In this document: positions 24,487 through 53,714 of the stretch, piece after piece
How the letters are laid out: the number at the start of each line of letters is the position of its first letter
Numbering within the stretch: position 1 is the first letter of the stretch
Origin: Bactericera cockerelli
Lineage: Eukaryota > Arthropoda > Insecta > Hemiptera > Triozidae
DNA: 64,000 nucleotides
NCBI GenBank assembly: GCA_024516035.1
Contig: CM044956.1
Location: forward strand, 52,379,316 to 52,443,315
Direction of reading: 5' to 3'
Program-made: the position numbers and the translations under genes
Notes under the pieces: generated by a model
The model's database searches: none
What the model saw: the letters and a program-made list of their open reading frames with translations, nothing else
Told to the model about the DNA's origin: nothing

Positions 24487-27400
24487 ATGTCACAAAAACC
24501 TTCTACATCTAAAGATACGAGATTTTTAGATCAACATTTTCATAAAGATCAGAGATTTTTTAGACCCGCTTATCGTTATGGAGACAAAGAATGTGATTCC
24601 AGTGATGAAGATTCAGTTGAACAGGATAATCAAGTTTCATGTCTTGTGGAGAGTCCCGCCGTTGTGTCTCCTCTAGTGAAATACTCTCCAGTTACGTCAC
24701 CTTCAGTCGCATGTACTCCAGTTGTGAGTCCTGCAGTTCCTTGTTTGTCCAATGCATGTTCTACAGCACAATATTCTCAAGTTGAATGTCCACCAGTGGA
24801 TTATTCTCCAGCTGCGTGTCTTCGGATAGAAAGTCCCCCCGTTGAGTCTCTTCCAGTAAAATGCTTTCCAGATAAGAATCCTCTTGTTGCTTATATACCA
24901 GATGCAGGTCCTCCAATGGAGTGCTCTTCAGGTGTGTGTCCTCCAATTACATGTACTTCATTTATGGTTAGCTCTCATAAGACGTCAAGTAATCCAGTGG
25001 CGATACCTTCAATAACTACCACAGAAACTAGTAATGGTTTTATCAAATGTTTTAATTGTGAAAAGATGTGTAAAGGTGTAAAAGGCTTGAAAATTCATTT
25101 TACCAAGGCACATCCCAATGTTAAACTTGACTATTCACTAAAGCAGGATGTAAACAAGAAGAGTAATAAAACTGAAAATGATTATAAAGCTGAAGTTCAT
25201 GGTATTAAAAAAGGTATTCTAAATGATCAATCAAATAATGAGAATACTATACCAAATTGCCAATCAAAAACTGTTCGCTTGAATTCAGATTTGAAAAAAT
25301 GCGATTTGTGTGGTAAATTTTTCAAATGTATAAAAAACCATTTAGTTTCGGGTCATCCTGATGTCTACAGACAAAATTTGTTAGACAAACATATTACTAT
25401 TCAGAACAATGATCAAGTTTCTTCATCAGAGAAAATTGATATAAAATTACAAGAAATAAAAAGAGACATGCAGATGTTCAATGAAAAAGATTGGTCAGAA
25501 ATGAACGACGAATCATTGAATTCAAATGTAGACGAATTTCAAGTATTCTTGAAAAGCCTTATTCACAAATTACCTGGTCCAAAGCATCCAGCAGTAAAAT
25601 ATTATGAACTAAGAAAGAAAGGAAAAACTTTGTGCTCACAGAATTCAAAATATAAACATTCATCAAACCCAGAGAGAAAAACCAAGAGGGATAGAAAGAA
25701 AAGAAAGGAAGCATACATATATCAATCTGTACAATTTCAGTACTACAACTGTAGAAAGAAAGCGGTAAGAAAAATCTTGGACGAAGATTCAAGACCTTGC
25801 CCAATCAAAATTGAACAATTTGAAAATTCATTTGAAAATACCCTAGGGTCAGTAAATACTTGTACTGATCATCTTGCTGAGGTATCACGAGAAAATGGTG
25901 AAAGTTTTCAAATTTCCATTGATGATGTTACTTGGGCTATCAAAAAGATGAATATGGACACATCAGCAGGTGTAGATGGTGTGTTGGTACGCGCTGTAAA
26001 ATTTGAAGGTGTTTCTCAAGTTTTAGTTAAAGTGTTTAATCGTCTACTAGAACTGGGAACGTTGGCCAAATGTTGGAAATTAGGCAGAACAATTATGCTT
26101 GACAAAGGAGATCAAGTAGAGTCAGTCAAGAATTGGCGTCCAATTACTATTCTTCCTGTACTTAGACGAATATTTGAGAAAATTTTAGAGAAAAAATTGA
26201 GAGAACATGTTATAATTGACATCAACCAAAGAGGTTTTATGCCATTGCCAGGGTGTGCTATCAACCTAACTGTTGTGGAAACAGCTCTTGATGTTGCTAA
26301 AAAGGACAAAAGTGATCTTGTTGTTCTGTTTGTAGACATAAATCAGGCGTACAATAATGTTGGACATGATCAAATTAAAAAGTCTCTTGATAGAACAAAT
26401 ACACCTAATATGTTGAAGAACATGATACTTGACTGTCAAATAGGAAATTTTACCAAAATCCATGTTGGAAGAAATTGTTCTAAGAATTTAGAGTTGAAGA
26501 GAGGTTTGATGCAAGGTGCCCCTCTATCTCCTATTCTGTATAATCTTGCAACCAATCACATTGTAGAGGAAATAACAGAAGAAGGAATTGTCAATACCTA
26601 TGGTGTCAAAATAACCGATTCTTATAAGACCTCAGCAATGGCATTCGCAGATGACTTGTGCATACTAGGCAATTCTTTAGAAGCAGCTGAGAGTATATTT
26701 GCAATTGTCAACAATAGACTTCATGAACTAGGAATGTGTCTTAATCCATCAAAAACTCAAGCTATAGTAATAAAAAAAGGTGTGCTTGTTTCATCTGATA
26801 TTATTATTGGAGGAAAACAGATAAAAACAGCATCTCAAGAAAACCATGTAAAATATCTTGGAACTGCTCTCAAAGATAAAATTGTGCTTGAAAAAGAAAA
26901 AACTATTTCAGAATTGAATGAAAAGATTGAAAAAATTGTAAAAACTCCTTATCTTAAAGCAGACCAAAAAATTTTGGTGCTAAATACATACATTTGGCCT
27001 ATTTTAACATTCAAACTTCAAAATACACCTGTTGATAGATGGAGTATTCCCTTTATTGAAGATTTTGATAAACTCGTCAGGTCTGCCACAAAACAAATAT
27101 TGGAAATTCCACGAGATGTGCCTGATGCTATGATGTACTCAAGTAAAAATATGAGAGGATTGCAAATGTTTAAGTTCTCTTGGGAAATAATAATTCAAAG
27201 AATTAATCTGTTCTTATCTTTGAAGAAACAGCCAGATGATGTCATCAACATGCTAAGAGACTTAGATAAGGAAATTCAAATATGTTTAAACACTTTGGAT
27301 ATCACTGAAAGCATAGAAAATATTAGTTCAAGAAGCATTCGTGAGGAGTTGAGAAAAAAAGAATTTGAAAAATGGAAAGAGATGAAAGTGCGAGGTGTAG

Positions 27401-28077
27401 GGGTATGTCTGTACAAAGATGGAAAACAATATAACAAATGGCTCTCAACCCAAGAAGGCATTTCTAACAGTGAGATGACTGATCTATACAAAATGACGTC
27501 CAATACTGCTGCAGTCAGATCTCTTCCAGGTAGATCCCAGGATGGTGTCCAGTGTCGCCGATGCCCTGGCGTCGAGAATAAAACAAATGTTGAAACACTG
27601 GCACACGTTCTGGGAGCTTGCCCCTTTGGTCATTTACAGCGAGTAGCCCGTCACAACACTGTGAGAAGTCTTATTGCCAATGAATTGAAAAAGAACTTGG
27701 AAGTATACGAAGAAGTTAATGGGTTGGCAGAAGATGGTTCTATCCGACGCATCGACATTATTGCCATTGACAGAGGTATTAAGAAAGGATTTATAATAGA
27801 CCCCACAATCCGTTTCGAATTTCACCAAGACCAGCCTGAGGAAGTAAATCAAGAGAAAAAAAATATTTACGAGCCAACCATTTCACACTACAAAATGAAG
27901 TATGGTTTAGAAAGTATTGAAGTGATTGGAGTAATGATAGGATCTCGAGGGGCATTAACATCTGTTTTCATAAATTTTTGCAAAAGGTTTAACATCCCTC
28001 AAAAAGTCATGAAAATAATATTGCACCACACTATACGCTCCTCAATTGCAATTGTAAGATCTCACTTATATAGATGA
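24487..28077 (+). CDS. R2/R4-like non-LTR retrotransposon polyprotein, intact, 1196 aa
   Basis: Single uninterrupted ORF in the layout of restriction-like-endonuclease LINEs. Residues ~49-157 are a degenerate proline/valine/cysteine-rich repeat. There are two C2H2 fingers: C188, C191, H204, H209 and C272, C275, H285, H290. A basic segment (~380-420) follows, then reverse transcriptase: WRPITILPVLRRIFEK, LFVDINQAYNNVGH (Asp 617), RGLMQGAPLSPILYN and AFADDLCILG (FADD 720-723). C-terminal CCHC: C1023, C1026, H1040, C1045. PD-(D/E)xK-type nuclease: IDIIAID (D1090) and GFIIDPTIRFE (D1105). Known family: such elements insert by target-primed reverse transcription, R2 in 28S rDNA and R4/Dong elsewhere. 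No rDNA flanks exist here. ATG 24487 is the first in frame. AATAAA lies at 28108. Looks recently active, since no stop or frameshift is seen. Confidence 0.93.
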   Translation: MSQKPSTSKDTRFLDQHFHKDQRFFRPAYRYGDKECDSSDEDSVEQDNQVSCLVESPAVVSPLVKYSPVTSPSVACTPVVSPAVPCLSNACSTAQYSQVECPPVDYSPAACLRIESPPVESLPVKCFPDKNPLVAYIPDAGPPMECSSGVCPPITCTSFMVSSHKTSSNPVAIPSITTTETSNGFIKCFNCEKMCKGVKGLKIHFTKAHPNVKLDYSLKQDVNKKSNKTENDYKAEVHGIKKGILNDQSNNENTIPNCQSKTVRLNSDLKKCDLCGKFFKCIKNHLVSGHPDVYRQNLLDKHITIQNNDQVSSSEKIDIKLQEIKRDMQMFNEKDWSEMNDESLNSNVDEFQVFLKSLIHKLPGPKHPAVKYYELRKKGKTLCSQNSKYKHSSNPERKTKRDRKKRKEAYIYQSVQFQYYNCRKKAVRKILDEDSRPCPIKIEQFENSFENTLGSVNTCTDHLAEVSRENGESFQISIDDVTWAIKKMNMDTSAGVDGVLVRAVKFEGVSQVLVKVFNRLLELGTLAKCWKLGRTIMLDKGDQVESVKNWRPITILPVLRRIFEKILEKKLREHVIIDINQRGFMPLPGCAINLTVVETALDVAKKDKSDLVVLFVDINQAYNNVGHDQIKKSLDRTNTPNMLKNMILDCQIGNFTKIHVGRNCSKNLELKRGLMQGAPLSPILYNLATNHIVEEITEEGIVNTYGVKITDSYKTSAMAFADDLCILGNSLEAAESIFAIVNNRLHELGMCLNPSKTQAIVIKKGVLVSSDIIIGGKQIKTASQENHVKYLGTALKDKIVLEKEKTISELNEKIEKIVKTPYLKADQKILVLNTYIWPILTFKLQNTPVDRWSIPFIEDFDKLVRSATKQILEIPRDVPDAMMYSSKNMRGLQMFKFSWEIIIQRINLFLSLKKQPDDVINMLRDLDKEIQICLNTLDITESIENISSRSIREELRKKEFEKWKEMKVRGVGVCLYKDGKQYNKWLSTQEGISNSEMTDLYKMTSNTAAVRSLPGRSQDGVQCRRCPGVENKTNVETLAHVLGACPFGHLQRVARHNTVRSLIANELKKNLEVYEEVNGLAEDGSIRRIDIIAIDRGIKKGFIIDPTIRFEFHQDQPEEVNQEKKNIYEPTISHYKMKYGLESIEVIGVMIGSRGALTSVFINFCKRFNIPQKVMKIILHHTIRSSIAIVRSHLYR

Positions 28078-29596: not shown

Positions 29597-29605
29597 AACC
29601 CTTGG

Positions 29606-29867
29606 GGAGTCGATGGCATGTTGAATACACCGGTTCCTTTCAGAACACCGAAGTTAAGCGACATCCAGCGAGGTTAAGACTTGGATGGGTGACCATTCAA
29701 ATTCTAATTCTCGTGACGCTGGCTTTTCCCGGCCCCACTCAGGCTTGGTGAGGTCAATGTGAGTAGCAGGTTTGTGAGTTTCCTGCAAATGGAGGGTAAA
29801 ACCCCCGTCGTGATATGACCATGGCAGTTGAAAGCGACGTTAAACCCCACTTAAAAAAAAAAAAAAA
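29606..29867 (+). mobile_element. 5S rRNA-derived SINE with TSD and a nested 3' fragment
   Basis: GATGGCATGTTGAATACACC, GAAGTTAAGCGACATCCAGC, GGATGGGTGACCA, then body and poly-A. The flank AACCCTTGGG occurs on both sides (about 29597 and 29870). A second short tail (CGTTAAACCCAAATT plus A-run) and a third CCCTTGGG follow at 29886-29918. Confidence 0.88.
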
Positions 29868-32387: not shown

Positions 32388-33021
32388 TGGGGTTTAACGT
32401 CGCTTTCAACTGCCATGGTCATATCACGACGGGGGTTTTACCCTCCATTCGCAGGAAACTCACAAACCTGCTACTCACATTGACCTCACCCAGCCTGAGT
32501 GGGGCCGGGAAAAGCCAGCGTCACGAGAATTAGAATTTGAATGGTCACCCATCCAAGTCTTAACCTCGCTGGATGTCGCTTAACTTCGGTGTTCTGAAGG
32601 GAACCGGTGTATTCAACATGCCATCGACGCTGGCTAAATTCGTTTTTATTTTCAGCTGCCGGGCGAGGCTATACGGAAGCTGAAAAAGTTCCTGTACGAA
32701 ATCAAAACCGAGGAGCTTATTGTCGGCCTGAACGTGTACCAACATCTGCAGGACTGGGGGCTCTGTGTTGCTCCCAAGTACAGGGGCTGGGGCGTTGGGG
32801 AGCAGATCCTGCGCACAGGCAATGCGCTTGGCGCCCACATCGGGATTCGAACCATCGTCACGGTGTTCACAGTGATCAACTCTCAGGTGCTGGCGGATAG
32901 GCTTGGCTATAAGACGCTGAACGCTTTCAAGTACCTTGAGTACAGAGATGAAGATGGCAACCTTTATTTTCCCGGAGTAGAGACGACAGAGGAAGTGAAA
33001 CTAATGGTGCTGACTTTCTGA
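30208..33021 (+). CDS. GNAT N-acetyltransferase, insect arylalkylamine-NAT-like, 245 aa
   Basis: Coding exons 30208-30401, 31142-31319 and 32656-33021 join in phase (738 nt, 245 aa plus stop). The first exon begins at a CTACTTCCAG acceptor (30158), so a 5'-UTR exon exists upstream. The acetyl-CoA pyrophosphate loop is VAPKYRGWGVGEQI (R167-G172, R/QxxGxG). The C-terminal part (TVINSQVLADRLGYKTLNAF, EVKLM) has the layout of the small cytosolic arthropod GNATs that include dopamine/arylalkylamine N-acetyltransferases, which act in amine inactivation and cuticle sclerotisation. Length fits that family (200-280 aa). Substrate cannot be told from sequence. Exons are GC-richer than the spacer. Intron 2 carries a 25-bp array and a 5S SINE ending 14 bases before exon 3's AG. 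Confidence 0.85.
30422..30780 (+). mobile_element. tRNA-derived SINE, family D, longest copy with LINE-like tail
   Basis: Head GCCTCCGTGGCGTAACG and TAAGTTCGATCCCCGG. Shared body GGGTGAGGTTAATGTGGGTA and GCGAATGGAGGGTGAAACCC. Tail GGACATCCAGCCG, CCATGAGGTTGAACAACGTC, CCTGCTGAAGCGGGATAAGA and (GAA)n. Starts 20 bases after the exon donor in GNAT intron 1. The tail probably marks the LINE partner (RTE-like, inference). Confidence 0.85.
30945..31115 (+). mobile_element. Dispersed repeat, family L
   Basis: CATCATCATAGGGTGGTGTC, CGTGAACGATGGTAGCCAGA, CAGTGGAGGAATGACT, CTTTACAAGGAGGCTAATAA. Other copies at 37800 and 59495. Ends shortly before GNAT exon 2. Confidence 0.65.
31142..31319 (+). CDS. GNAT middle exon
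   Basis: Acceptor ACTGTTGCAG/GTC and donor GAA/GTGAGT, phases 2 to 0. Encodes TNVVGEEDSLETYKILFYIV and EEIVGAQLYTVF. Confidence 0.83.
31320..31866 (+). repeat. 25-bp minisatellite following the GNAT exon 2 donor (~21 units)
   Basis: Unit GTGAGTCCTCAG + AGGGGTAGTCACC, repeated without gaps with one T variant near 31467. Each unit shows a GTGAGT donor hexamer and CCTCAG, echoing the real donor GTGAGTAAAG at 31320. The array ends where GTAGTCACCGTG becomes the 5' end of a family A SINE, so the unit spans an intron/SINE junction. Confidence 0.95.
31855..32012 (+). mobile_element. tRNA-derived SINE, family A
   Basis: GTAGTCACCGTGGCCGAGTG, B box GGTTCGAATTTC, TCCGGGGTACAATCATACCT. Its first 12 bases are part of every preceding minisatellite unit. 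Confidence 0.8.
32030..32112. mobile_element. Family K MITE fragment
   Basis: CCACATTCTGAAACAGGGTT, GGATTTAATCTAAGTGG and CAACCAATCACAG. Better copies at 40241 and 56400. Confidence 0.55.
32130..32302 (-). mobile_element. Dispersed repeat, family I
   Basis: CTTGCAGTTTCCCAAGGATT, ACGATGGTTGATC, GTTGGCTGGAGACCAT, TGTAGCCAGGCTGGCTACA. Same orientation as 12685 and 57100. Confidence 0.65.
32352..32635 (-). mobile_element. 5S rRNA-derived SINE against the GNAT exon 3 acceptor
   Basis: A T-run at 32352-32384, then the reversed tail, body and 5S head (GGTGTTCTGAAGGGAACCGG). The TSD AAATTCG(TTTTT) lies at 32345 and 32636. The right TSD plus TTTTATTTTCAG now forms the whole polypyrimidine tract of exon 3. 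Confidence 0.92.
32656..33021 (+). CDS. GNAT last exon with acetyl-CoA site
   Basis: Acceptor TTTTATTTTCAG/CTG, phase 0. Encodes LPGEAIRKLKKFLYEIKTEE, NVYQHLQDWGLCVAPKYRGW, GVGEQIL and ends EEVKLMVLTF-stop. The RGWGVG loop and the following helix are the GNAT signature. Confidence 0.88.
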   Translation: MPGEAIRKLKKFLYEIKTEELIVGLNVYQHLQDWGLCVAPKYRGWGVGEQILRTGNALGAHIGIRTIVTVFTVINSQVLADRLGYKTLNAFKYLEYRDEDGNLYFPGVETTEEVKLMVLTF

Positions 33022-35570: not shown

Positions 35571-35800
35571 GCCAGCGTCGATGGTGCGTTGAATGCTCCG
35601 GTTCTCGTAGGATCACCGATGTTAAGCAACGTCCAGCGAGGTGAAGACTCCGTGATGCAGGCATTCTGGCCCAACCCAGGCTAGGTGTTCATTTGAATAG
35701 CAGGTTTGTGAGTTTCCTGTGAATGGAGGCTAACACCCTCGTCGTGATATGACCATGCAGTTAAAAGCGACATTAAAACCCAATTTATATAATTTAAAAA
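35571..35800 (+). mobile_element. 5S rRNA-derived SINE
   Basis: GCCAGCGTCGATGGTGCGTT, CACCGATGTTAAGCAACGTC, CCCAACCCAGGCTAGGTG, GAATGGAGGCTAACACCCTC, GCGACATTAAAACCC then A-run. Confidence 0.85.
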
Positions 35801-39204: not shown

Positions 39205-39434
39205 GCCAACGTCGATGGTGCGTTGAATGCACCGGTTCTCGTAGGATCACCGAAGTTAAGCAACCTCCAGCGAAGTGAAGACTTCGTGATGCTGGAATTC
39301 CGGCCCAACCCAGGCTGGGTGAGTTTAATGTGGGTAGCAGGCTTCTGAGTTTCCTGCGAATGGAGGGTAACACCCCCGTCGTGATATAAACATGCAGTTG
39401 AAAGTGACGTTAAACCCAAATTAAAAAAAAAAAA
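39205..39434 (+). mobile_element. 5S rRNA-derived SINE
   Basis: GCCAACGTCGATGGTGCGTT, GCACCGGTTCTCGTAGGATC, CGAAGTTAAGCAACCTCCAG, CAACCCAGGCTGGGTGAG, AAAGTGACGTTAAACCC then A-run. A typical copy of the subfamily lacking the late 5S box. Confidence 0.9.
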
Positions 39435-41702: not shown

Positions 41703-43425
41703 AATTTACGTCATGAGAGTCTCTGAGAGTTTGATTCTTACACGAGTTTGTTTCAGAAGTGTTAAACACCTATCTGACCCCTTTTAATAAAAAGTTTAAT
41801 TTAATTTGTTTTTTTTTAGTATTAGGTATATAATTACAATAAAGGTAGATGGACATGCCCATTCAGAAACTTAAAAAAGAAAATAAGTTTGTAAACATCA
41901 AAGAAGGCCGTAATAATCTCTGGTTTTGAAGTTCTCGACTTATCTACCCGTCCGAGACAAACTTGTCTCTAAAAATATACATTTGTTAGCAGAAATACTC
42001 ATTTCTACGACAATTTTTTTACTTATTCTTTCAAAAAAATACAAAATTGGTATACTCAATAATATTATTAAGGAATAAAATCAATGTTTTTGTAAGTTTC
42101 AAGCCACTTCTAATATCCACTTCCCTACGTAACTGTACACAACTACACAATTTATGAGGTTAAAAAGTTCAGCATAGGTACACACAATTTATTTTAATAA
42201 TAGGTTATATTTTGTACAATTACTGAATTATTTTCTTACAAATTAGCCGTATTTTTCTTTCCAACCAAAGTGTATTCAAATGGAATAAAATGGGACGAAC
42301 TGGAAAAAAGTCATTTTTCTTTTAGAAGAAGATTTTCCAATATTCTTCCAGTTTGGTTACCCCAAATGGATTTATAAAATTATTGCTTCCATTTCTTAAT
42401 AGGTTAAGTCCATTGTTTATCTTTAAAAGTACCGAAATGCATTTTTCATTCACGAATAATGGGGAAGCTAAACTGGAAATATTTGGAATAAAATGGAAAT
42501 GTTTGGAAATACCAAACCTGGAAAAAAAATTTATCCAAAAGAAAAACACGGCTATTGATAATCTACAAAGATTCTACAGACAGGTAAGACAAGGTTGATG
42601 TAAGGTACAAGGGAAGAGGCAGAGACAATAGTGTCCTATCCAGAAGAGATGGGTATTTTTCTCCGGACACACGACTGGAGAGGAAGATAGCGAAGACAAA
42701 GGAGTTCATGATGGAAACGTAATTTTATTAAAAATGTTAACAGTATTTAGCGAGATTATCCCAAGAGTCCTTGAAGAAGATTGATTGCTTCTAAAGTCGC
42801 TTTTTCGGGAAGGTTTTCGTAGGACATTTTTTGTTGCAGTTGATTAAGTAAATCACTCCTTTTCTAAAATTAAGTGGAAGTAGTTTTGAAATGAAAAACA
42901 TAGTAATTTTATCATTTCGCATTGTGCTACATTCTTGCCAAAGTAATTTTATTGAGTTTGATCTGAATCATCCGATTCTGATTTCCAATTCTGTCGCCAA
43001 GAAATCGTATCAAAAATTCCAATTCAATAAATTTGACAGCAACTTTGCTATTGGCTGCTCGATCATCCCTGTCACAGATCAATAAAAAAAACCCCCACAA
43101 ACCGTATAACTGTACATTTGTTCATCTTACAATGGGGATAATACAAAGAAGGTCTTGTTATCAGGCAGCGTTTACACGATCGGTTTTCATAACCAGATAT
43201 TGTGAACGGTGCCTGATGACAGTATAGTAAAATTTAAAATGCAGTCAGTCTTACATATGGGAAAGAATAGGAAACAGTGCAAGTCTTATGAAGTGACACA
43301 GAAGAGACTCAGAATGCAACAGGTGGTGAAACAGACAGAAGACCAGGAGAAGGTGGGGGCTTGGCTGGCTGCTGTGATGCTCATGTCACGAATATCCTCT
43401 GGAAACAGAAAGAAACAGGAGTTAT
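41703..43425. other. Spacer, no gene recognised
   Basis: Several 60-80-codon open frames (for example 42353-42598 + and 43209-43433 +) have no recognisable domain, start context or splice partners. I do not call them genes. Confidence 0.45.
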
Positions 43426-43610
43426 CAGTATAAACAGAAAAGTGGGAAGTTGTACTAGATGTACATGAATATCAGAACATACCTGGACAGCTGTTTCGAG
43501 CTCATTTGCTCTCATCAGCAAGTAATATTTCTGAGTATCCATGCCATCAACTATTTGAATCAGTATAAACAGAAAAGTGAGAAGTTGTACTAGATGTACA
43601 TGAATATCAG
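43426..43610 (-). mobile_element. Hammerhead-ribozyme retroposon (retrozyme-like), 1.4 units of 135 bp, perfect TSD
   Basis: On the minus strand the unit CTGATATTCATGTACATCTA..TTCTGTTTATACTG is repeated with period 135 (CAGTATAAAC at 43426 and 43561). The 12-bp direct repeat AACAGGAGTTAT lies at 43414-43425 and 43611-43622, exactly outside the element. One hammerhead core lies inside. The other copies are at 49540-49750 and 52233-52435. Confidence 0.88.
43473..43533 (-). ncRNA. Type I hammerhead ribozyme
   Basis: Minus strand order: stem I strand (TACTTG), CTGATGA (43512-43518), stem II GAGC-AAATGA-GCTC, GAAA, minimal palindromic stem III CAGCTG, cleavage triplet GTC, stem I strand CAGGTA then TGTTCTG. 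All conserved core bases (CUGAUGA, GAAA, A-U pair, GUC) are present. Stem I has a G-U pair in this copy. Confidence 0.85.
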
Positions 43611-43629
43611 AACAGGAGTTATAAGAAGA

Positions 43630-43740
43630 GAATGCCGAAGGCATTATCACCACCCTTGATCAGGCATTGTTTATATTTATTTCTCAACTTGTTACCATGT
43701 TCATTGTATATAAAGGATGTAAATAAAGCTGGATCCAATT
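43630..43740 (-). repeat. Dispersed repeat, family J
   Basis: GAATGCCGAAGGCATTATCA, CACCCTTGATCAGGC, GTATATAAAGGATGTAAATA. Reverse of the units at 11960 and 14035. Retroposon 3'-end-like. Confidence 0.5.
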
Positions 43741-43904
43741 GTTTAAAAAAAAAGAAAAATATCGGGAGATATTTTTTAAACATCTACAACAATATAAAAA
43801 TTGATTTTCTAAAATTATTACATATAAAAAACCTCCTCCATTCTTAAGCAGCTGTGCAAAGTCCCCATGACATTCAAATATTTATTTTAATCAGTAGATT
43901 AAAA

Positions 43905-44330
43905 TATCACGCAAGAATTGACCCGTGACTTTAGTATTCAGAGGTATCAAAATAGCCTTTGTGTGCAAATTTCAATGAAATGTAATATCATCAGGAGATC
44001 AAAGTAAATATTTTCCCTAACCAAGAATTGAACCCGTGACTTTGGTATTCAGAGGTATCAAAATAGTCTTTTTTACTTCTTTTTTTTAATGAATCATTTG
44101 TTTTATTTTTCATATTTTTTTTTTTGTATACAGAAGACCCATTCTAAGCCATTTTTATTTGGCTTCTAAGATTTTGGCTTCTGAGATTTTTCTTCTTGTG
44201 CAAATTTCAATGTGACTGTGATGTCAGGCGATCAAATTAAATATTTTTCCCAAGCAAGAATTGAACCCACAACTTTGGGATTCAGAGATATCAAAAATAG
44301 TTTTTTTGTGCAAATTTCAACAGTGACACG
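43905..44330 (-). repeat. Three tRNA-like repeat units, interrupted by a family N insertion
   Basis: Units around 43910, 44020 and 44260 each read, on the minus strand, GATACCTCTGAATACC..AAAGT..GGGTTCAATTC, resembling the anticodon and T arms of a tRNA, spaced by GTGCAAATTTCAATG. 44085-44195 is the reversed family N repeat. Possibly a multimeric SINE. Confidence 0.5.
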
Positions 44331-44744
44331 TTTTAGGATCTATTTTCATGTTGAATGTAGGAAATCTTTCAAGTAAGGAGAAGGCAAATACACCCAGAAT
44401 AAATTGATACGAGTCTTCTTTCCGAAGAGACTGTCTATGACCCTTCCATCCCACACTCACTCTTTTGAATAACTTATTATTACTCTTTTCTTATTTTCCT
44501 AAATTAGAGGAATTTATTTTTTGTCATATTTATTATCTTCCCCTAATTAAGTACACTGTGTTAAATTTCTTAATATGACTTAAACCTTAACGAAACTTGA
44601 AGTCTACTGCGCAAACACTTGGTTTTTGGCGTTCAATTCTTATTTTTGCTATAGGTACATAATAAAAGATCCATTCATTAAGATCTGTAGGTAATTAATC
44701 ATCCATTGACATCTGTAGGTAATTAATTGTTGCCCAGAACTACC
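44331..44744. other. Spacer, nothing recognised
   Basis: AT-rich. AAGATCTGTAGGTAATTAAT and a near copy of it repeat twice near 44680. Confidence 0.45.
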
Positions 44745-44865
44745 TCAATTCACCTCACGAGGCTAGGGTAGGCCCCGCCATTCGATGTACAGAGCCGAAA
44801 AAACTCCGACCCCGCCGGGATTCGAACCCGCAACTGGAATGCAAGAAACTTAGGCAGTACAAAAG
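44745..44865 (-). mobile_element. tRNA-derived SINE fragment, A-like
   Basis: Minus strand B box GCGGGTTCGAATCCCGGCGG, followed by GTCGGAGTTTTTTCGGCTCT, comparable to the post-head region of family A. Confidence 0.55.
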
Positions 44866-45057
44866 AGAAATACATATCTACCAATATTAATTTAAAAAAA
44901 AATTGATGCCTAGTTCTTTTAGAACTAAAATTACCAGCCTCAATTATGTCTCATGAGGATTTGGGACTCACGAAAGTTAAAAATAAATAAATGGTAATTT
45001 TTAATTAATGAGCCCAGTGGTTCATGATAAATCGTTGAAAAAAAAGAACTTCATAAA

Positions 45058-45360
45058 TGAGCGCGCGATTATCTCAGTGGTTAAGCACTCGCTTGCCATG
45101 CGGAAGGTCCCGGGTTCGATCCCCCGTGCCGACAAAAAATTGTATTCTTAATTTGGTTACAATTTATTGTTTGTAAGGGATACCTTCCGGTGCGCTCGTG
45201 TTGACCCAACACCTTAATGACAAGTAGTGTGTCACTTCTCGCCCATCAGAGGGGAGGCATACTACGGTATGGGTAGGCTACAACACAGACCACAACCGTC
45301 TACTGTAGCTCCTGTTTCATGGCTACGAAATGAAAAAGGTTGTGAAACACTCATCTTTAA
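45058..45360 (+). mobile_element. tRNA-derived SINE, family F, best copy
   Basis: GAGCGCGCGATTATCTCAGT (A box), CCCGGGTTCGATCCCCCGTG (B box), GGGATACCTTCCGGTGCGCT, CTTCTCGCCCATCAGAGGGG, CTCCTGTTTCATGGCTACGA, ending GTGAAACACTCATC. Confidence 0.88.
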
Positions 45361-45988
45361 AAAAAAAAATCAAAATGTTAAATTTCATCAGGAAATGAGC
45401 AGCAAGCTGGGTTTGAAGAGGCGATATCTTGCCTTGCAAGCTGCCTGCGTACCGCATCTACCTCTCCGCTGGGAAATTTCCAAACACTTCTTCCTTTTCT
45501 ATTATACCAATTTCTTTTTTGTTTACTTTGATATTTTCTTATCCTTCCTCTCAATTTAATTTTTCCACCCTAGCCTTTTTTTTTTTATCAAATCTTCTTA
45601 TGTGAGATTTCCTTTTAAACTCCACCTAATAATCTTGAATATACGTCCGTTACTTATTTTCTCGTATATCAAAAGGGACCAATTTATCAACAAAGTCAAC
45701 TTCGAGTGTTTTCAATTTCCAATCTTATTTTTTGATACGTTTCACGTATTTTATCGCACATCTACTTAGTTGAACTTATTGAAATTGGAAATTGGAGGGT
45801 GTTTGTTGATTTTCAAGAAAAAATCAAGAAGTAACGGAAATTACTTTGAAAAATACTACATTGTAATCCCTATTGTAGACTCTGAAGTTGTTATTCACCA
45901 AACAATGCAATGTGGTTTGGAACTAAGTTACTCGTACATTAAATACAGCAATCCAGTACATTATTTAAACATAACTCATGAACTTTAG
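45361..45988. other. Spacer, nothing recognised
   Basis: AT-rich. The small + frames at 45380-45560 and 45770-45988 show no known motif. Confidence 0.45.
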
Positions 45989-46122
45989 GCCCGAATTAAT
46001 GAACTCTGCTGTGGTGGACACTGATACTAAAGTATCTGATTTCAGTTGATTGGCTGTTACCATGGTAATAACAACAGTATAGTAGCAGTCTACGCTTTAG
46101 AGACGTTCATTAATTTGTGCAT
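45989..46122. mobile_element. Small MITE with GAATTAATGAAC ends
   Basis: GCCCGAATTAATGAACTCTG at the left and ACGTTCATTAATTTGTGC at the right form terminal inverted repeats. An internal palindrome TACCATGGTAA is present. No coding capacity. Confidence 0.6.
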
Positions 46123-46125
46123 TAT

Positions 46126-46314
46126 GGCCGGTTCTATCAATGAATGACAAAAGCGAGGGTTTTTGAAACTTCGGTTTGGTTCAATCTCGTTTTAAATAAA
46201 TACTGGTACACACTACACAAGCGCTAATTTGACGAATCTTTTTGGAACTAGCGTTTCTAATCCAAGATTCGTACCAAACCAAGGTTTCATTAAATTGATA
46301 GAACCGGCCATTAG
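46126..46314. mobile_element. Small MITE with TGGCCGGTTCTATCAAT ends
   Basis: TGGCCGGTTCTATCAAT at 46129 and its reverse complement ending about 46311, with TTGAAACTTCGGTTTGGT / ACCAAACCAAGGTTTC inside as a second inverted pair. About 185 bp, directly beside the previous MITE. Confidence 0.75.
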
Positions 46315-46404
46315 ACTCTTCATACATAATTGTATGAGTCATGTCGTTCGTGCCGCCAAAGGGCCTGAATAAACTACATAAAAAGCGTTATTAAATTTGT
46401 TATT

Positions 46405-46590
46405 TATTTACACTTCAGTTATTTTTACAAAACAATCATCAACAAATAATATTAATAACAATAAATTAAAAAAAAAACTTAGAAGTATGTACAAAAAAAA
46501 TAATAATAAAGATCAATATTAATTTTTAATTACAATTGTTTTGTAATCCGGGGCGAAGTTAATGCCTTCGGCATTCTTTGCCACTTAATA
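46405..46590 (+). repeat. Dispersed repeat, family J
   Basis: TTATTTACACTTCAGT.. A/T-rich centre, ending AGTTAATGCCTTCGGCATTC. Same end as the 14035 unit. Confidence 0.5.
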
Positions 46591-46597
46591 CCTAAGT

Positions 46598-46705
46598 AGA
46601 CAAAGGTTCACAGCTCACCAATACCTCGCTGAAGACAAAGGTTCACAACTCACCAATACCTCACTGAATACAAAGGTTCACAACTCACCAATACCTCGCT
46701 GAAGC
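46598..46705 (-). repeat. ~35-bp array carrying the FnIII exon donor (three units)
   Basis: Minus-strand unit CTTCAG-CGAGGTATTG-GTGAGTTGTGAACCTTTGT. CGAGGTATTGGTGAGT is identical to the end and donor of the FnIII exon at 47666-47680. A further unit lies at 47412-47465. The array was split by later insertions. Confidence 0.8.
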
Positions 46706-47411
46706 AGTGGCGGCTCCTTCTAAAGGGCTCAGGGGCTCTAGCCCCCCAAAAATTCGAAAGAAAAAAAAACTGAAAAAATATTCTTGCTTCACTATGAATT
46801 TTCCCATTACATGTAGAATGTTTAAAATCAACATAATTTCAAGTAAAATAAATCCCTGCTAAAAATCTCTCGTTTAACATTGCCACTATAGAATATGTGG
46901 GGCTCATTTATTTGAGCCACATCTATTCTATACTGAGCACACGGGTTATATATTTACAATCTAGCGATGACGTCACAAAGTGTATGCTATTATACATGGC
47001 TCTGGGGCTCAGCCCCAGGGTCTGTGGGATAGAATATGGGAATAATAAAAGGTAGTTATTTTTTCTCTCGTAACATCGTACCATGAATATTCCCACACGC
47101 GTTGCAACATTTTTCTCCACCGGTGAAGTCACCGATACTTGATAAAGGTTGAATTGAGTTTCAAAAGTCAACGGTTTGAATTGTTTGTTTACGTTTCGTG
47201 ATATCAATTTTAAAATTTTATGTCTCGTTTATCTCAGTGCGTTTATTCGACGATTACTAGTTGAATATTTTTCAACTATAAATTATTAAAGACACAGGAT
47301 TAAAATATAGTTACATTTACAGTTTACTCGTACTTTTTACATATTATATAGCACATAAATATAGCACTGCAATAATACAAATTACAATACTTTTTATAGG
47401 TACTTTCAGAG
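46703..47411. mobile_element. Insertion in the array, left end CAGTGGCGGCTCC
   Basis: Begins CAGTGGCGGCTCCTTCTAAA and contains AGCCCCCCAAAA, like the ends of hAT-type DNA transposons. The matching right end is not visible, so the boundary at 47411 is only where the array resumes. An internal inverted repeat TAGAATATGTGG..CCACATCTATTCTA lies at 46887-46929. Confidence 0.4.
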
Positions 47412-47660
47412 TTCAGGTTCACAACTCACCAATACCTCGCTGAAGACAAAGGTTCACAACTCAAATAAGTAGATCAAATAAGTAAATGCGACCCTAGATC
47501 AAATAAGTAAATGCGATCTTTTTAGTATTTAGGATTTAATTTTAAGGATTTTTTTTATTATTTATATTTAAATCTACTTAAGATTTTTTTTATATAATAT
47601 ACCCGCGATATTGTTTAAATGGATGCGATATCCGTAAATTCAAAAAAAAAAAAAAAAAAA
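47412..47660 (-). repeat. Array remnant plus poly-A insertion
   Basis: 47412-47465 is one further 35-bp unit and part of another. 47466-47660 is an inserted segment ending in an 18-20-base A-run (47641-47660), with ACTCA at both edges as a possible short target-site duplication. The A-run reads as a T-run right after the donor on the gene's strand. Confidence 0.6.
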
Positions 47661-47665
47661 CTCAC

Positions 47666-47879
47666 CAATACCTCGCGTTGTGAACTGGAACTTGTCCGAG
47701 ATCTTGTTCCACCCGAACTTGTTCTTGGCCTGTACCTGGGCCTCATATTGGGCCCCCGGGTCTAGGCCGCGTATCAGGTAGGACATCTGCTGGTTGTACG
47801 CGTCGGAGGAGGCGGCGGGGAGGATGACGTCATTCCACTCCTTGTGGTGGCCGTAGATGTGCCCGTACGTGATGTTGTC
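47666..47879 (-). CDS. Fibronectin type III exon of a cell-adhesion protein (partial gene)
   Basis: Minus-strand exon with acceptor GTGTGCCCCCAG/GAC and donor either GAG/GTATTG (exon ends 47672) or TTG/GTGAGT (47666). Both are phase 1. Encodes ITYGHIYGHHKEWND, SYLIRGLDPGAQYEAQVQAK and NKFGWNKISDKFQFTTR. The L-x-P-x-x-x-Y-x-x-x-V-x-A-x-N-x-x-G pattern is the FnIII E-F-G strand signature. Only the C-terminal half of the domain is here, so a preceding exon exists. Insect Ig/FnIII adhesion molecules (klingon/wrapper-like) are a plausible source, but I cannot assign the protein. No other exon of it was found in the window, so introns are long. GC-rich compared with its surroundings. Confidence 0.8.
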
Positions 47880-47928
47880 CTGGGGGCACACGGAGGGGTT
47901 TCTCTATTATTATTATTGTTTAATCATC

Positions 47929-48262
47929 GTCTGTCCCGGTAGCTCAGTGGTCAAGGCGGCACCCTGTGAATCCAGAGGTTCCAGAGGTCGTGGGTTCGAA
48001 ACCCACGACCTCCAGCCGGGACATGACAAGTTATTTTCCCATTTGGGATTTTTTTTTTAACAACATTTCCATTTATTTGACAAATATAAATTATAACAAT
48101 ATAAAATAATAGAAAGGTATACCCGTCTTCAAAGTTAAAAACTGTGAAGAAGATAATTTTACCACATAATAATGTGTCCTGAGCCTACTGCTGGAATAAT
48201 GGGATTTTAATAATCCTTATCGGGCAGTATAAATAAGGCGATATTTATATTGCCCGATTATT
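47929..48262 (+). mobile_element. tRNA-derived SINE, family C, with internal insertion
   Basis: CTGTCCCGGTAGCTCAGTGG, GTCGTGGGTTCGAAACCC and GGGACATGACAAGTTATTTT, then a ~115-bp AT-rich insertion (48046-48160), then TACCACATAATAATGTGTCC and TACTGCTGGAATAATGGG. Lies about 50 bases upstream of the FnIII exon on its own strand. The FnIII gene is transcribed the other way. Confidence 0.78.
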
Positions 48263-48484
48263 ATTATTATCACTTAATATCAAAGGTTCAGTACATCATA
48301 AACATGATTTTGGGAAACACGTTCAATATAATATGCATTATTATTATTTTTAAAATACTTTCTTAGATTTAAAAAGACATATGTACAGTACAAGTAATTA
48401 TTTAAAAAAAAAAAAAAAATGTAACCAATAGATAAAAATATAAGAAATAGATAAATAAATTATAAACACATAACAGTACATAAC

Positions 48485-48612
48485 ACATAAGGCAGCGGAC
48501 TTGTAACCTGGAGGTCGGTGGTTCAAGTCCCGGTTTCAGCATTGATTTAGAAAAGCGAGTTTGAGTAGTTGTAATATCACGAAAGTGATTAACACAAATA
48601 TGATAACTTTAA
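48485..48612 (+). mobile_element. tRNA-derived SINE, family B, 5' truncated
   Basis: CATAAGGCAGCGGACTTGTA, GGTGGTTCAAGTCCCGG, GTGATTAACACAAATATGAT. The A box is lost. Confidence 0.75.
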
Positions 48613-48829
48613 TATTACAATTAACTGTGTATGAATGATTATCCCTACTTCAGGACTTTAAGACCATTCTGCTGCTCGCTATTTTGAATCCTAAGTGATA
48701 TGAGCGCAAAGACAAACACAGGAATGGAAACATCTCTAGAGAAAGCACAAGATGGAAGGGGGCCGCAATGGCCCCAATGCCTTTTTGGATGAGGGATGGG
48801 AAATTTCATCAGGAGTAACAGGTATGTCA

Positions 48830-48978
48830 GCAAGGGATGCGAGGGCGTATGGAGGAGGGACGAGGGTCATGGAGGAGGGAAGAGGGCCCTGGAGGAGGGA
48901 AGAGGGCCCTGGAGGAGGGACAATGGCTATGGAGGAGGGAAGAGGGCCATGGAGGAGGGAAGAAGGCCATGGAGGAGG
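48830..48978. repeat. 24-bp minisatellite, ~6 units
   Basis: ATGGAGGAGGGAAGAGGGCC-type units, open on both strands because the period is a multiple of three. The flanks do not look like a known protein, so I do not call a gene. Confidence 0.85.
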
Positions 48979-49099
48979 GGAAGAGGCGGGGTTGAAAGTC
49001 ACCAAGTCAAGTTTGACAGGAACAATAGTCGCAGGAGGCGCAACACAAAGCCGGGATCACACTCGGTGTAAAATTTTGTCTAGCGAGGTTACGAAATGT

Positions 49100-49409
49100 A
49101 TTTGTATGTATGGTTTTATTTGTGGTGAAGCACAAAGCCCCTTCACATTTTTTGTGGGTAGCGCAGCATTACTAAGAGCCTCCTGTACTTTTCAAATTAT
49201 TCTATTACATCACTTTCTTTTTACTCTGGTAATGCCGCCACTGGTCGTTACTCATACAAGTAACTACTCATTTTTCCTCACGAGGTATGAGTTTACCCCG
49301 AACACCCAAGAACAGAGCAGAAAAAATCCTGCCCCGCTGGGGATCGAACCCAGGTCACCGTGCGTGCAATGGCTAGCGCGCTAACTCACTCAGCCACGGT
49401 GACTTCTAC
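49100..49409 (-). mobile_element. tRNA-derived SINE, family A, full length with 12-bp TSD
   Basis: Minus-strand full copy: head complement of GCCACGGTGAC at 49399, B box near 49345 (GATCGAACCC reversed), body to GGTGAAGCACAAAG. The direct repeat GTTACGAAATGT lies at 49088-49099 and 49410-49421. Confidence 0.93.
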
Positions 49410-49539
49410 GTTACGAAATGTTTCGTATAGTTTCATGTGTAATGCTTTCTCTACAATCAAATGAGATTTTTTTTCCGTTAGGCGCTTAAACACCACTGGT
49501 GGAGTGGGTCGTTCGCGCCGATCCCTCAATGAACTATAT

Positions 49540-49750
49540 CAAGTTAATGAATTTAGTACATCTAGTACAACTTCTCACTATTCTGTTTATACTGATTAAA
49601 ATAAAGAGGTTAGTTGATGGCATAGATATTCAGAACTTTTACCTGCTGATGAGAGCAAAAAAGCTCGAAACAGCTGTCCAGGTATGTTCTGATATTCATG
49701 TACAACTTCTCACTATTCTGTTTATACTGATTAAAATAGAGAGGCTTGAT
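49540..49750 (+). mobile_element. Hammerhead-ribozyme retroposon, second copy
   Basis: GTACAACTTCTCACTATTCT repeats at 49565 and 49700 (period 135), flanking one hammerhead core. Ends are less clear than in the 43426 copy and I see no certain TSD. The long open frame through the unit is incidental. Confidence 0.8.
49631..49691 (+). ncRNA. Type I hammerhead ribozyme
   Basis: CAGAAC-TTT-TACCTG (stem I), CTGATGA (49646-49652), stem II GAGC-AAAAAA-GCTC, GAAA (49667-49670), stem III CAGCTG, GTC (49676-49678, cleavage after 49678), CAGGTA-T-GTTCTG (stem I). The outer CAGAAC/GTTCTG and inner TACCTG/CAGGTA pairs are perfect, separated by an internal loop like those that make the natural ribozyme's tertiary contact. 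Confidence 0.9.
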
Positions 49751-49969
49751 AGATTTCAACTTATTAGAATGGGCTTCAGAGTTCCATGATTCTTGCCAAA
49801 ATGTTTTTATGAGCTTATAATCAAATGAGATTGAATCTCACTAAAACAATACTATGCAACAATTGCATCACTGTGCAACATTTCTCATTCAAAATATTAG
49901 CCAAATTTTGCTAGACGATTAGAAACAAAATACTATTTTTTTTGTTTTGAAGCAAAAGGTCTCTTCAAA

Positions 49970-50226
49970 AAAAATTGTGAGTAGCGCAACATTACTCAGA
50001 ACCTCCTTCACTTTTAGAATTCTATTCCATTAATTTCTTTTTACTCTGGTTATGCCGCGACTGGTCGTTACTCATAAAAGTAAAAACTCATTTTTCCTCA
50101 CGAGGTATGAGTGGACCCCGAACATCAAAGTAAAGAGCTGAAAAATTCCGGTCCCCCTGGGTATCGAACCCAGGCCACCATGCGTGAAATGCCTAGCGCG
50201 CTAACTCACTCGACAACGGTGACTAC
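49970..50226 (-). mobile_element. tRNA-derived SINE, family A
   Basis: Minus strand: body TTACTCTGGTTATGCCGCGA reversed, CTCACGAGGTATGAGTGGAC, B box TATCGAACCC reversed. Second A copy in the same orientation 570 bp from the first. Confidence 0.8.
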
Positions 50227-51464
50227 ATTGACATGACCTTAACGAGATATTTCATCCCAGTGAGTTCAATTCCTCTGCTGTGTCTTAAAGAATAGTTTTT
50301 TTTTTTAAATTGAAGCATTCTTCAATGAAATACTAATGTTTTTTTATGGACTTGTTGTAACTATGGACAAGACCTTATATACCTACATAATTATAAAAGG
50401 TATGGTTTTTCTTCAGTTATCCATGACTTTATTCAATGCGACAGAATAAATTTGGTCGAACTCCACCGCGTAATGTTTAAAATAAATAATGCATTGATTT
50501 TGAAACAACTAATTGAATTATATTTCAAAAACGCCTTTTACGCCTAACAATGTTTTTGGTCCCCACTTTTTGCTAAACAGGACAAAACTTTCTGACTTTT
50601 TTTTTTCTTTTCTTTCTTCTCATTTTCTTTTTATCCTTCTTCAGGGATTGCTATAATAAGTCAGAGACTGTTTCTTTGCCATATTTTCTTCACTTTTCTG
50701 CTACATTTATTTCTTTCAACAAAAATGATTAACCTACATTTCAAATATTTCGTCTCTACTGAGTTCCTGATGTCATTTCCGGCCTGCAGGTGCCTGCAAA
50801 GTCCGGTATTCGAATAACAATGTAGTGTTTTGTTTCAAGTCGCTTTGTACTTTCTAATGGTAAAAAAATAAGATCAGCTTGTACTTAAAGCCATTCAAAT
50901 AAGTAACATCTTTGTAATTTATGTAAATTTCGTCATTCTCCTCTTTTATATTACTGTAAGTTTTTTATGTACAGTAACTTTTATATTATGTACATATTTG
51001 TTTGTTTTATAATATTATGTGTAAATATACTGCGACTTTTGGTTGATTTTTTTTTTATTAATTAATAAAGTTATTAATTAATAGTAAGATTAATAAGTAA
51101 CATCTAAGTATTCTATCATAAAATACACCGTCAATTATGTAAGTGCAAAACACTCGATCTCTTCGCCTAAATCACACGGTCAGTGTAAAAGAGCTCAGCA
51201 TTCATTCTAATTAAAACAAATAATTTCATTTTCACAATTTCAGGTAGATTTAGCAATCGTAAGCGCACAATATTATCGTTTTCATCGAACAAAAAAAGGA
51301 ATGTGTATAAGAGCCTGCACATTGCATAACTAATACATTACGGCGTGAATACAAATTTATTCCTTACAAAAAAAATTCAATTTGAATTTTCAACTTAATT
51401 TACAATAATTTAAGATTACAAAATAATTACCTCTTGAGCTGATTCTAACTTATTTAGAGACACC
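50227..51464. other. Spacer, nothing recognised
   Basis: AT-rich with short TTAATTAATA runs. No coding exon or recurrent repeat. Confidence 0.5.
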
Positions 51465-51548
51465 ACCAATCAACCCCAACCATGAGGTTGAAAATTGTCG
51501 ACCCCAAGTAGAATATGGAGTAAGGCATATGAAAGAAGAAGAATGCAA
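51465..51548 (+). repeat. LINE-like 3' tail fragment
   Basis: CCAACCATGAGGTTGAAAAT, GTCGACCCCAAGTAG, then GAAAGAAGAAGAAT. Same tail as at 16085 and 30690. Confidence 0.5.
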
Positions 51549-51654
51549 ATTCAATCCTATCCCTGGACCCTCACATTATGTGGATATTAATCTCATGTCC
51601 ACATTTGAGATGTCGCCAATAAATTCAAAATTATCGCCTGCGTCGGGTTAACCA

Positions 51655-51990
51655 ACACTTCCTCGTCTGATCAGCGGTGCCCGGTGCCACTCGTGTGCGA
51701 GAGATTTCCTGACATTCAAGGGATTGAGAATACATCAAACTAAGAAACACCTACGCAATGCTTCCACTGATAATGTCAACAGGATTTCATTTCAAAATAC
51801 TACTCCTCAGACACATCCATCTCAGCCCGTTACAAATTCTCATGAAATTTTGATTGGACAATTAACCAACTTCAAATCAAATGTGCATGTCTTAAGAAGC
51901 ATCCCCAAGGGTGCAACGTCATGCTATCCAATCACTATGTCACTCGTGCTGAACAGGTGTCTTCAGAAAAATATTTTTTCATCGTGAAAA
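51655..51990 (+). pseudogene. N-terminal fragment of a second RLE-type LINE (C2H2 finger)
   Basis: In one frame it encodes CHSCARDFLTFKGLRIHQTK plus KH, a C2H2 finger (first Cys codon 51685) with the same spacing as the first finger of the R2-like protein at 24487 (CxxC-12-HxxxxH). It then runs through VHVLRSIPKGATSCYP to a stop at 51985. Different enough to be another family or an old copy. No reverse transcriptase follows. Confidence 0.6.
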
Positions 51991-52232
51991 ATGTTTTTCA
52001 TGTTTTTTCATCGCACACATGTCTCCGAGTTCCTGAAAAAGTAGTTTTTTCATGGCACGTTGAATGCACCGGTTCTCGTAGGATCACCAAAGTTAAGCAA
52101 CGTCTAGTGAGATGCAGACTTCGTGATGCTGGCATTCCAGCCCAACCCAGGCGAGGTGAGGTTATTGTGGGTAGCAGGGTTCCTGTGAATTTAGGGTAAC
52201 ATCCCCGTCATGATATGACCAATTGACCATGC

Positions 52233-52435
52233 ATCTAATACAATTTCTTACTTTTGTGTTTTTACTGATTAAAATAGAGAGGTTAGTTGATGTCATGTAT
52301 ACTCAGAACTATTACCTGCTGATGAGAGCAAATAAGCTCGAAACAGCTGTCCAGGTATGTTCTGATATTCATGTACATCTATTCAGTAAAACTTCTCACT
52401 TTTTTATTTATACTGACTGATTATACTGATACTGA
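52233..52435 (+). mobile_element. Hammerhead-ribozyme retroposon inside a 5S SINE
   Basis: The insertion splits the SINE tail with ATGCA at both junctions. Contents match the 43426 and 49540 copies. The repeated TTTATACTGA part is slightly expanded at the right. Confidence 0.82.
52304..52364 (+). ncRNA. Type I hammerhead ribozyme
   Basis: CAGAAC-TAT-TACCTG, CTGATGA (52319-52325), GAGC-AAATAA-GCTC, GAAA, CAGCTG, GTC (cleavage after 52351), CAGGTA-T-GTTCTG. Core identical to the 49631 copy; differences fall only in loops. Confidence 0.9.
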
Positions 52436-52475
52436 TGCAGTTGAAACCGACGTTAAACCGAAATTTACATAAAAA

Positions 52476-53714
52476 AAAATAGTTTTGACTATTTCTGTGA
52501 TGTGAATACTCAAATCAGAAAAAGGGGAAGAAGACTGAAAGTGGTAGGAGCAATATCTCAAAACGGGTTGAAGCAAAGCTCTGTGATTTTGATACCCGAG
52601 AGGCTTTTCGTATTCTCTCATGCAATGGTACACTTACTCCTAATACAGAAGAGAATCTGACCAATTTTTTTTTTTTTTTTTTTTTTAACATGAGTGTTAC
52701 ATAGCCGCAACGCTCCCAAGTATTTTTTTGTTTGTTTAAAACATATTTTTTATTATTAACATTAAATTAAAATAAATCAGAAACAAAATATAAACAACCG
52801 CTTCATCTAAAATCTTCAACTCCATCTTCGTATCCAAGCAGCGACTCTCCTGACTTCCATCGCCTCCTGGCCCCTCGGATTCACTAAGTATTGGTAAGTA
52901 GGTAATTAAAATTTAATCCTACGAGAATCAATAAGTCCAGTTCTAGGGAAAACGTATCATACAATAATACTCGTATCGTCACGTCATGCTGTCTACCCCT
53001 GGTCCTGGAATCATAAAGTTTCATAATAACGGCGCGATGACATATGCAAATCAGCACACATTTCAGCCTCCACCGGGTATTATGAAAGTTAAAATTGAGT
53101 TTTAATCCACATTAATTCTCCTGACAATGCACGCCTATAATATCTAGAACCTATACATTGCAAATTCATACAGAATACCCAGCATGTGTAAACTGTACCC
53201 TATCTAGTAGCTAGTAGGCTGCTAGGGTGTGCTCCAGGGGCGAATTTTTAAGTTCGGAAACGGGGAAGAAAATAATTTCCACCGTAAAGCTGCAGATAGT
53301 ACAAAACTTTGTGCCAAGTATTAACTCTCTACCTAAGTACCTGTGGCTTTACAATAAATTTAATGCACTTATCAGGCATGCAGCCCCTCATGTGACCTTT
53401 ATGACCAGGCCAATGAGGTTCTTAGTAACGATAAGTTATCAGAGTGTAACTATTCACGACACTGATTTAGTTATAAGCATTTAAAACTTTCCACCATTAT
53501 AATAATCATAAATAATCTCTATATATAAAACTCAAATCTGTGCGTGTCTGACTATATTCTCTTAGGGGTTGTCTGTTTTCAATACCAGAGCCCAAACGGT
53601 AACAGATATTGAAAGCTAGTTCGTTTAATTATAATATAGGCAACTATTCTTTCCTAGTCGGTTTAATTTTTTATAGAGAGTATTACAATAATGCAGTAAG
53701 ATAGTAAATTACTA
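52476..53714. other. Spacer, nothing recognised
   Basis: T-run at 52662-52686. The rest is AT-rich. The 53227-53484 frame has no recognisable domain. Confidence 0.45.

Follow-up and report, generated by a model that had tools for sequence, protein, structure and literature searches.

A dispersed hammerhead-bearing repeat family in Bactericera cockerelli, with a fixed 3′ end and two length classes, as a probable non-autonomous retrozyme

A stretch of 64,000 nucleotides (nt) from Bactericera cockerelli (contig CM044956.1; C2:52379316-52443315 in the 565-Mb assembly; hereafter the window) carries three copies of a short repeat with a hammerhead ribozyme motif. They belong to a dispersed family whose copies share one 3′ end and fall into two length classes. 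We consider it probable that this is a non-autonomous retrozyme family, mobilised through RNA by a partner reverse transcriptase (RT) that would start at one internal site and copy about one lap of the unit. Which enzyme copies animal retrozymes into DNA, and from which form of RNA, is the question addressed here. Thousands of copies, one apparent start site and quantised lengths make this question testable; start site, template form and partner each predict distinct end patterns.

Re-reading the sequence bears out the positions originally given for the three copies. Positions within the unit are expressed as phases, numbered from the base after the self-cleavage site, and the copies, their parts and their insertion sites are as follows:

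43426..43610, minus strand: retrozyme copy 1, about 1.4 units, from 5′ phase 7 to the fixed 3′ end TATACTGAT at phase 62
43480..43524, minus strand: hammerhead core of copy 1 (RF02275, 24.5 bits, under cut-off)
43414..43425: left copy of the 12-bp target-site duplication (TSD) of copy 1, AACAGGAGTTAT
43611..43622: right copy of the 12-bp TSD of copy 1
49556..49744, plus strand: retrozyme copy 2, 5′ phase 22, 3′ phase 75, with a 9-nt deletion
49640..49684, plus strand: hammerhead core of copy 2 (above the RF00163 gathering score)
52228..52435, plus strand: retrozyme copy 3, 5′ end at about phase 19, 3′ end at 52416 (phase 61)
52313..52357, plus strand: hammerhead core of copy 3 (RF02275, 33.4 bits, under cut-off)
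52052..52221, plus strand: left part of a 5S-derived short interspersed nuclear element (SINE) split by copy 3 (weak 5S match under cut-off)
52436..52479, plus strand: right part of the same SINE, with no clear target duplication

The unit, first put at 135 bp, is corrected here to 144 nt (GC 35%), the spacing of the tandem dimers that were looked for and found in the genome. The 135-nt spacing in the window arose because two of the three copies have each lost 9 nt, internally in copy 1. The 12-bp TSD of copy 1 is present as predicted, with 4 of its 12 nt overlapping the element end as possible microhomology. Copy 2 ends past the usual site, unlike the other two window copies, and copy 3 is followed by tail-like ACTGA repeats after 52416. 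The splitting of a SINE by copy 3 also stands: an uninterrupted SINE relative crosses the site directly (at 35755/35756) and other SINE copies have 2-5 nt between the two parts, so that copy 3 is an insertion without clear duplication.

To describe copy ends, a core-selected set was assembled from 100 listed of the 2,210 exact-core places in the genome (all on C1), one further locus (L004) and the three window copies. Each locus was aligned to the tandem unit, which, once five identical duplicates had been set aside, left 95 copies, and 83 independent copies after removal of those with both flanks in common. The 3′ end lies at phase 59-64 in 79 of the 95 copies and in 71 of the 83 independent ones; it is fixed, 59-64 nt 3′ of the self-cleavage site. 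Around it, 46 of the 95 copies have two or more ACTGA words, one of which the unit itself provides.

Lengths were measured back from phase 62. Among the 72 of 83 core-selected copies with a 3′ end at phase 58-66, 13 measure 96-143 nt, 48 measure 144-206 nt, 3 measure 207-268 nt and 8 exceed 268 nt; a number of the longest align with low scores and probably contain foreign inserts. The 3′-anchor search found 619 places genome-wide (control 0), from which 30, all on C1, were taken without core selection; 25 were left after five probable duplicates, recognised by eye, were dropped (L135, L123, L118, L110 and L121). In this 3′-anchored set, 9 copies measure 62 nt or less, 2 measure 63-143 nt, 13 measure 144-206 nt and one is longer, and in 22 of the 25 the 5′ end falls within the stretch that runs from the cut site to the 3′-end site, on the first or second lap. 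Thus, in both sets the 5′ ends lie mainly between these two sites. Compared with uniformly distributed ends, the gap has p 3e-4, the edge at 144 p 3e-4 and the edge at 206 p 1e-11, for length bounds that were picked post hoc with the data already seen. Two window copies follow both length rules and the 49-kb copy, with its 3′ phase of 75, does not. The sampled core copies mostly comprise 1.0-1.43 units with the fixed 3′ end (48 of 72) and are seldom tandem arrays.

The original prediction assigned a complete type I hammerhead to each window copy, and hand parsing recovers all the named parts in every one: CUGAUGA, a four-pair stem II (GAGC/GCUC) with a 6-nt loop, GAAA, and a GUC cleavage site. 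Stem I has two parts, ACCUG/CAGGU and UCAGAA/UUCUGA, with an internal loop between them and one G-U pair in the 43-kb copy. Stem III (CAGCUG) is contained in an eight-base palindrome, ACAGCUGU, read in all three window copies and like that of known dimer-acting hammerheads. One of the three copies passes the Rfam cut-off and two score below it: Hammerhead_1 matches 49640-49684 (plus strand) with 36.9 bits against a gathering score of 34, and at a relaxed threshold the best model for 52303-52371 (plus strand; 33.4 bits, E 1.5e-4) and for 43465-43535 (minus strand; 24.5 bits, E 0.1) is Hammerhead_HH9 (RF02275; cut-off 52). Hammerhead_HH9 is the best model for all three copies at the relaxed threshold, with all three under its 52-bit cut-off, and it resembles them in hammerhead layout only. 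RF02275 is the intronic hammerhead of amniotes.

The predicted minimum fold of the motif is not the hammerhead, since the CUG of the catalytic CUGAUGA pairs with the CAG of the palindrome. This alternative fold is consistent with a poor monomer and is no proof of a dimer; judging from the palindromic stem III, the hammerhead most likely works as a dimer. The 43-kb motif folds worse than the other two (z -1.97, with 9 of 200 shuffles equally good). The whole 144-nt unit has a predicted fold that beats all 200 shuffles (z -6.44) and forms a rod, whose apical loop and its immediate surroundings hold the 3′-end site, the putative start site.

The exact core occurs in 1092+1118 = 2,210 copies in the genome and its reversed control in none, so that the search bears out a dispersed family; with the shared 3′ end, this agrees with the earlier description of it as mobile and hammerhead-bearing. 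The hammerhead motif is not a chance occurrence: that explanation is ruled out by the 2,210 cores against a control of 0, together with stem pairing above shuffles. Rfam models find at least 54 hammerhead matches in the genome, a lower bound given that 74 of 85,613 candidates were scored. Matches of the genome-wide searches occur on all of contigs C1-C13, at positions of 12-65 Mb, which suits large chromosomes, and free-living psyllids have 13 chromosomes (PMC12203342). At least two further hammerhead families are present besides the retrozyme (family A), namely family B (palindrome ACGAUCGU) and family C (ACUAGU), the latter at 1501-1543 of loci L006 and L008 and with the shortest palindrome, ACTAGT. 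An alignment of families A, B and C (12 sequences, 11 distinct) was compared with 500 shuffles. Stem cells are paired in 99.2% of cases against 74.6% in shuffles, both sides have changed in 36 cells (15.6 in shuffles), and covariation scores 0.688 (0.231 in shuffles); for all three measures the observed value exceeds every one of the 500 shuffles.

Some family B copies lie within a satellite array of about 710-bp units. The array (L105/L106, C7:17218000-17235500) holds 20 type I hammerhead motifs with the palindrome CGATCG. Other family B copies (L001, L003 and L007, about 1430-1630) adjoin, by eye, a tRNA-like stretch and an A-rich end; the tRNA program detects no tRNA in that stretch, and family B is possibly a SINE with a hammerhead.

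What the sequence shows is the family and its motif, together with one 3′ end and two classes of length in the sampled copies; from these we infer the following pathway of cleavage, template and partner. RNAs transcribed from loci of at least two units would cut themselves after GUC. Because the fixed 3′ end differs from the ribozyme's own 3′ end, reverse transcription would start inside the RNA, at UACUGAU, a site some 62 nt 3′ of the cut that lies within the apical loop of the predicted rod or next to it, and slippage there would produce the short ACTGAT tail repeats. Some products would stop short of 62 nt, and the others would go roughly once round the unit and up to 62 nt further, so that a typical core-bearing insert would consist of part of phases 1-62, then phases 63-144, then phases 1-62. 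The simplest template would be either a circle copied in a single pass or an RNA that begins at the ribozyme cut. A circle read once would give the edge at 144 and the few longer products because synthesis meets its own start, and the length classes are in keeping with circular RNA. An RNA beginning at the cut would account for the 206 edge and not for the 144 edge unless structure helps; a protein bound to phases 1-62 of the next unit would account for both. Of these template forms we would rank the circle first. The partner would probably be a Penelope-like element and possibly a long interspersed nuclear element (LINE).

The fuller proposal, that the insert lengths are the footprint of a Penelope-type RT with one start that reads a ribozyme-made circle for about one lap, is offered tentatively, as the less likely course. 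If it is true, circle-templated retrotransposition in an animal would, as far as the literature was searched, be recorded here at sequence level for the first time, and the class of enzyme behind the movement of animal retrozymes would be named.

Candidate partners of the Penelope type are present in the genome. There are 25 GIY-YIG matches, several of them in open frames of 837-838 amino acids (aa), some in tandem; a 681-aa portion of one such frame carries both RVT_1 and GIY-YIG, and one Penelope-like protein of the genome is 66% identical to a protein of Cacopsylla melanoneura. A hammerhead-like motif lies 345 nt before the Penelope-like open reading frame (ORF) and has, by eye, a palindromic stem III (palindrome AUGGCCAU). 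It occurs in 182 exact copies and has no Rfam match at E<=1. Among 100 listed places of the 182, 24 belong to 12 divergent inverted pairs no more than 700 bp apart. One divergent pair of this motif also lies at C2:52480515-52480713, about 37 kb beyond the window.

Several observations weigh against a retrozyme copied by such a partner, or narrow the samples from which it is argued. The 5′ ends of the 95 copies show no spike at the precise position of the cut. A unit-length RNA cannot be freed by two cuts from a copy with a single core, and source loci with at least two units are few: two cores occur in 6 of the 95 copies, plus one run of four junctions. Most copies lack a TSD: those of at least 9 bp were found in 4 of the 95, two of these in tandem-repeat DNA; 8-bp TSDs are slightly in excess (9 against 2.3 expected), two copies within tandem repeats have TSDs of 0-6 bp (flanks compared by eye), and the 5′ flanks contain no target-site consensus beyond A/T richness. 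The core is weakly conserved (94.4%, compared with 89.4% at phases 63-93; p 0.02) in a set of 18 copies that includes two short ones with unrelated upstream DNA (L112 and L136). In the covariation alignment, pairs with changes on both sides number 7 against 6.4 in shuffles (240 of 500 as high) and further pair types 12 against 12.3; these counts are no higher than in shuffles, as is to be expected of an alignment made of three blocks of related rows. It should be noted that the core-selected set demands an exact core, which makes it blind to short copies, that it comes almost wholly from one chromosome, and that 9 of the 30 3′-anchored loci are also core-selected, so that the two sets are not independent. 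With regard to a Penelope-like partner, local alignments of the unit to the one Penelope inter-ORF region read are at chance level (scores 14 and 15), and ACTGAT is absent from that region. Divergent inverted pairs of the retrozyme core are absent among the 100 listed of 2,210 places, a search that a partner with an inexact core would escape.

The strongest rival is that a LINE recognising the 3′ end mobilises the unit, which would then be a SINE-like repeat with a hammerhead whose fixed 3′ end and short repeat tail it would have in common with some LINE, and whose two length classes would reflect RNA structure or the length of the template, not circles; we regard this as possible, if clearly less likely than the retrozyme. 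A fixed 3′ end, a short simple-repeat tail and 5′ truncation are the usual appearance of LINEs and SINEs, and copy 1 has a 12-bp TSD. LINE-like genes are also at hand. One in the window (24487-28077, plus strand) has an open 1196-aa frame with RVT_1, which we take by eye to be R2-like, and its nearest protein is from Diaphorina citri (66% identity over 78% of the length). However, TSDs of 9 bp or more occur in few copies, and random 5′ truncation leaves both the scarcity of copies of 63-143 nt and the drop at 206 nt unexplained. No LINE sharing the tail turned up, in work that included no systematic search for one.

Alternatively, the unit might be a degenerate Penelope derivative, a deleted pseudo-long terminal repeat (pLTR) that moves as a Penelope-like element does, as pLTR plus tail. 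The layout is alike in both, a hammerhead followed by a fixed internal end, and the genome's own Penelope-like element has the 182-copy motif with palindromic stem III. We nonetheless consider this derivation unlikely, given the lack of sequence similarity to the inter-ORF region of one Penelope family, a Penelope motif that was read by eye and lacks the Rfam match, and inverted pairs that are frequent for that motif and missing from the 100 listed places of the unit.

The remaining two rivals fare worse. An origin from a satellite, with copies dispersed by recombination instead of retrotransposition and the hammerhead a fossil, would suit the tandem dimers, the run of four junctions and the hammerhead family in a satellite array; it is very improbable in view of thousands of dispersed cores, one 3′ end common to 71 of 83 copies, the tail repeats, and insertions within a SINE and tandem repeats. 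As the main form of the family, a tandem satellite was likewise ruled out for the sample, in which most copies comprise 1.0-1.43 units and the 3′ end is fixed. The unit length, 144 nt, is a multiple of three, and frame 1 is free of stops round the circle, with 48 codons per lap and in-frame ATGs, yet an endlessly translated coding circle is scarcely credible: in 74 copies the values for codon positions 1/2/3 are 0.068/0.037/0.033, so that the third position does not change fastest, the 11 stop gains come close to the 14.8 expected, there is no surplus of synonymous changes, and indel lengths are not predominantly multiples of three. The open frame around the unit thus lacks a coding signal, as was expected of an element said to have no coding part.

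As a retrozyme, the unit most resembles the metazoan non-LTR retrozymes, which share with it a type I hammerhead, a short AT-rich sequence with no coding signal, tandem and lesser copies, and a self-paired RNA; the weak helix III with palindromic loop is also seen in amphibian retrozymes (PMC7229834). At 144 nt it falls just under the published range (RNAs of about 170-400 nt and repeats of 150-450 bp in PMC7229834, Cervera & de la Pena 2020; about 150-300 bp in a review, PMC7761336), and its GC of 35% is below the 50% ceiling of such units. The discoverers of these retrozymes propose Penelope-like elements or LINEs as their movers, and report TSDs longer than 4 bp when present (PMC7229834). 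Those of the unit are 12 bp at copy 1 and at least 9 bp in 4 of 95 copies, with the small 8-bp excess and no clear duplication at copy 3. Copies that mostly comprise a full unit and a partial one, and that share a fixed 3′ end and a repeat tail, are undescribed for metazoan retrozymes in the available portions of PMC7229834. A literature search, mostly in papers open without subscription, gave no account of this family or of its end pattern, and no paper on psyllid hammerheads surfaced. The suggestion that the family may be undescribed thus holds for the family itself and not for its class: what is new here is the anatomy of the copies (fixed 3′ end and two length classes).

Penelope-like elements with hammerheads resemble the unit in having the hammerhead upstream of a fixed internal RT start, partial tandems, and TSDs that are short or absent (PMC11167929, PMC3846280), being 8-10 bp or none in rotifers (PMC3846280). 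In contrast to them, the 144-nt unit encodes neither RT nor endonuclease, frames with RT and GIY-YIG being found elsewhere in the genome. For the Anolis element (Poseidon), an internal RT start was shown in vitro in a stem-loop downstream of the hammerhead, matching the genomic tails, and the hammerhead is dispensable for insertion in that system, according to the accessible text of PMC11167929; for the unit, the genomic trace of such a start is the 3′ end of 71 of 83 copies. A palindromic stem III allowing dimers has been noted for several hammerheads, including that of Aedes aegypti, in which palindromic stem III and loop III let two ribozymes pair, as they may in the unit (PMC3088659, Figure S8 legend). 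The Aedes hammerhead that was tested proved inactive under the conditions of that study, whose passages on it describe no mobile-element anatomy (PMC3088659). Satellites of newts and of Dolichopoda cave crickets likewise consist of non-coding repeats that carry a type I hammerhead; the newt unit is longer, at about 330 bp (PMC7229834). The copies described here are, by contrast, mostly dispersed. The Dolichopoda pDo500 satellite unit is reportedly about 500 bp.

Beside one retrozyme copy (L014/L015, minus strand) lies a 245-aa open stretch that, by eye, may resemble a viral RNA polymerase motif. Elsewhere in the window, a 48-bp tandem array of 66 copies occupies 8062-11414, and six heads of 5S rRNA-derived SINEs score above the Rfam cut-off:

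14648-14740, plus strand: 5S rRNA-derived SINE head
23355-23476, minus strand: 5S rRNA-derived SINE head
29603-29715, plus strand: 5S rRNA-derived SINE head
32513-32634, minus strand: 5S rRNA-derived SINE head
35571-35663, plus strand: 5S rRNA-derived SINE head
39205-39297, plus strand: 5S rRNA-derived SINE head

The 5S rRNA-headed repeats of the window constitute one SINE family.

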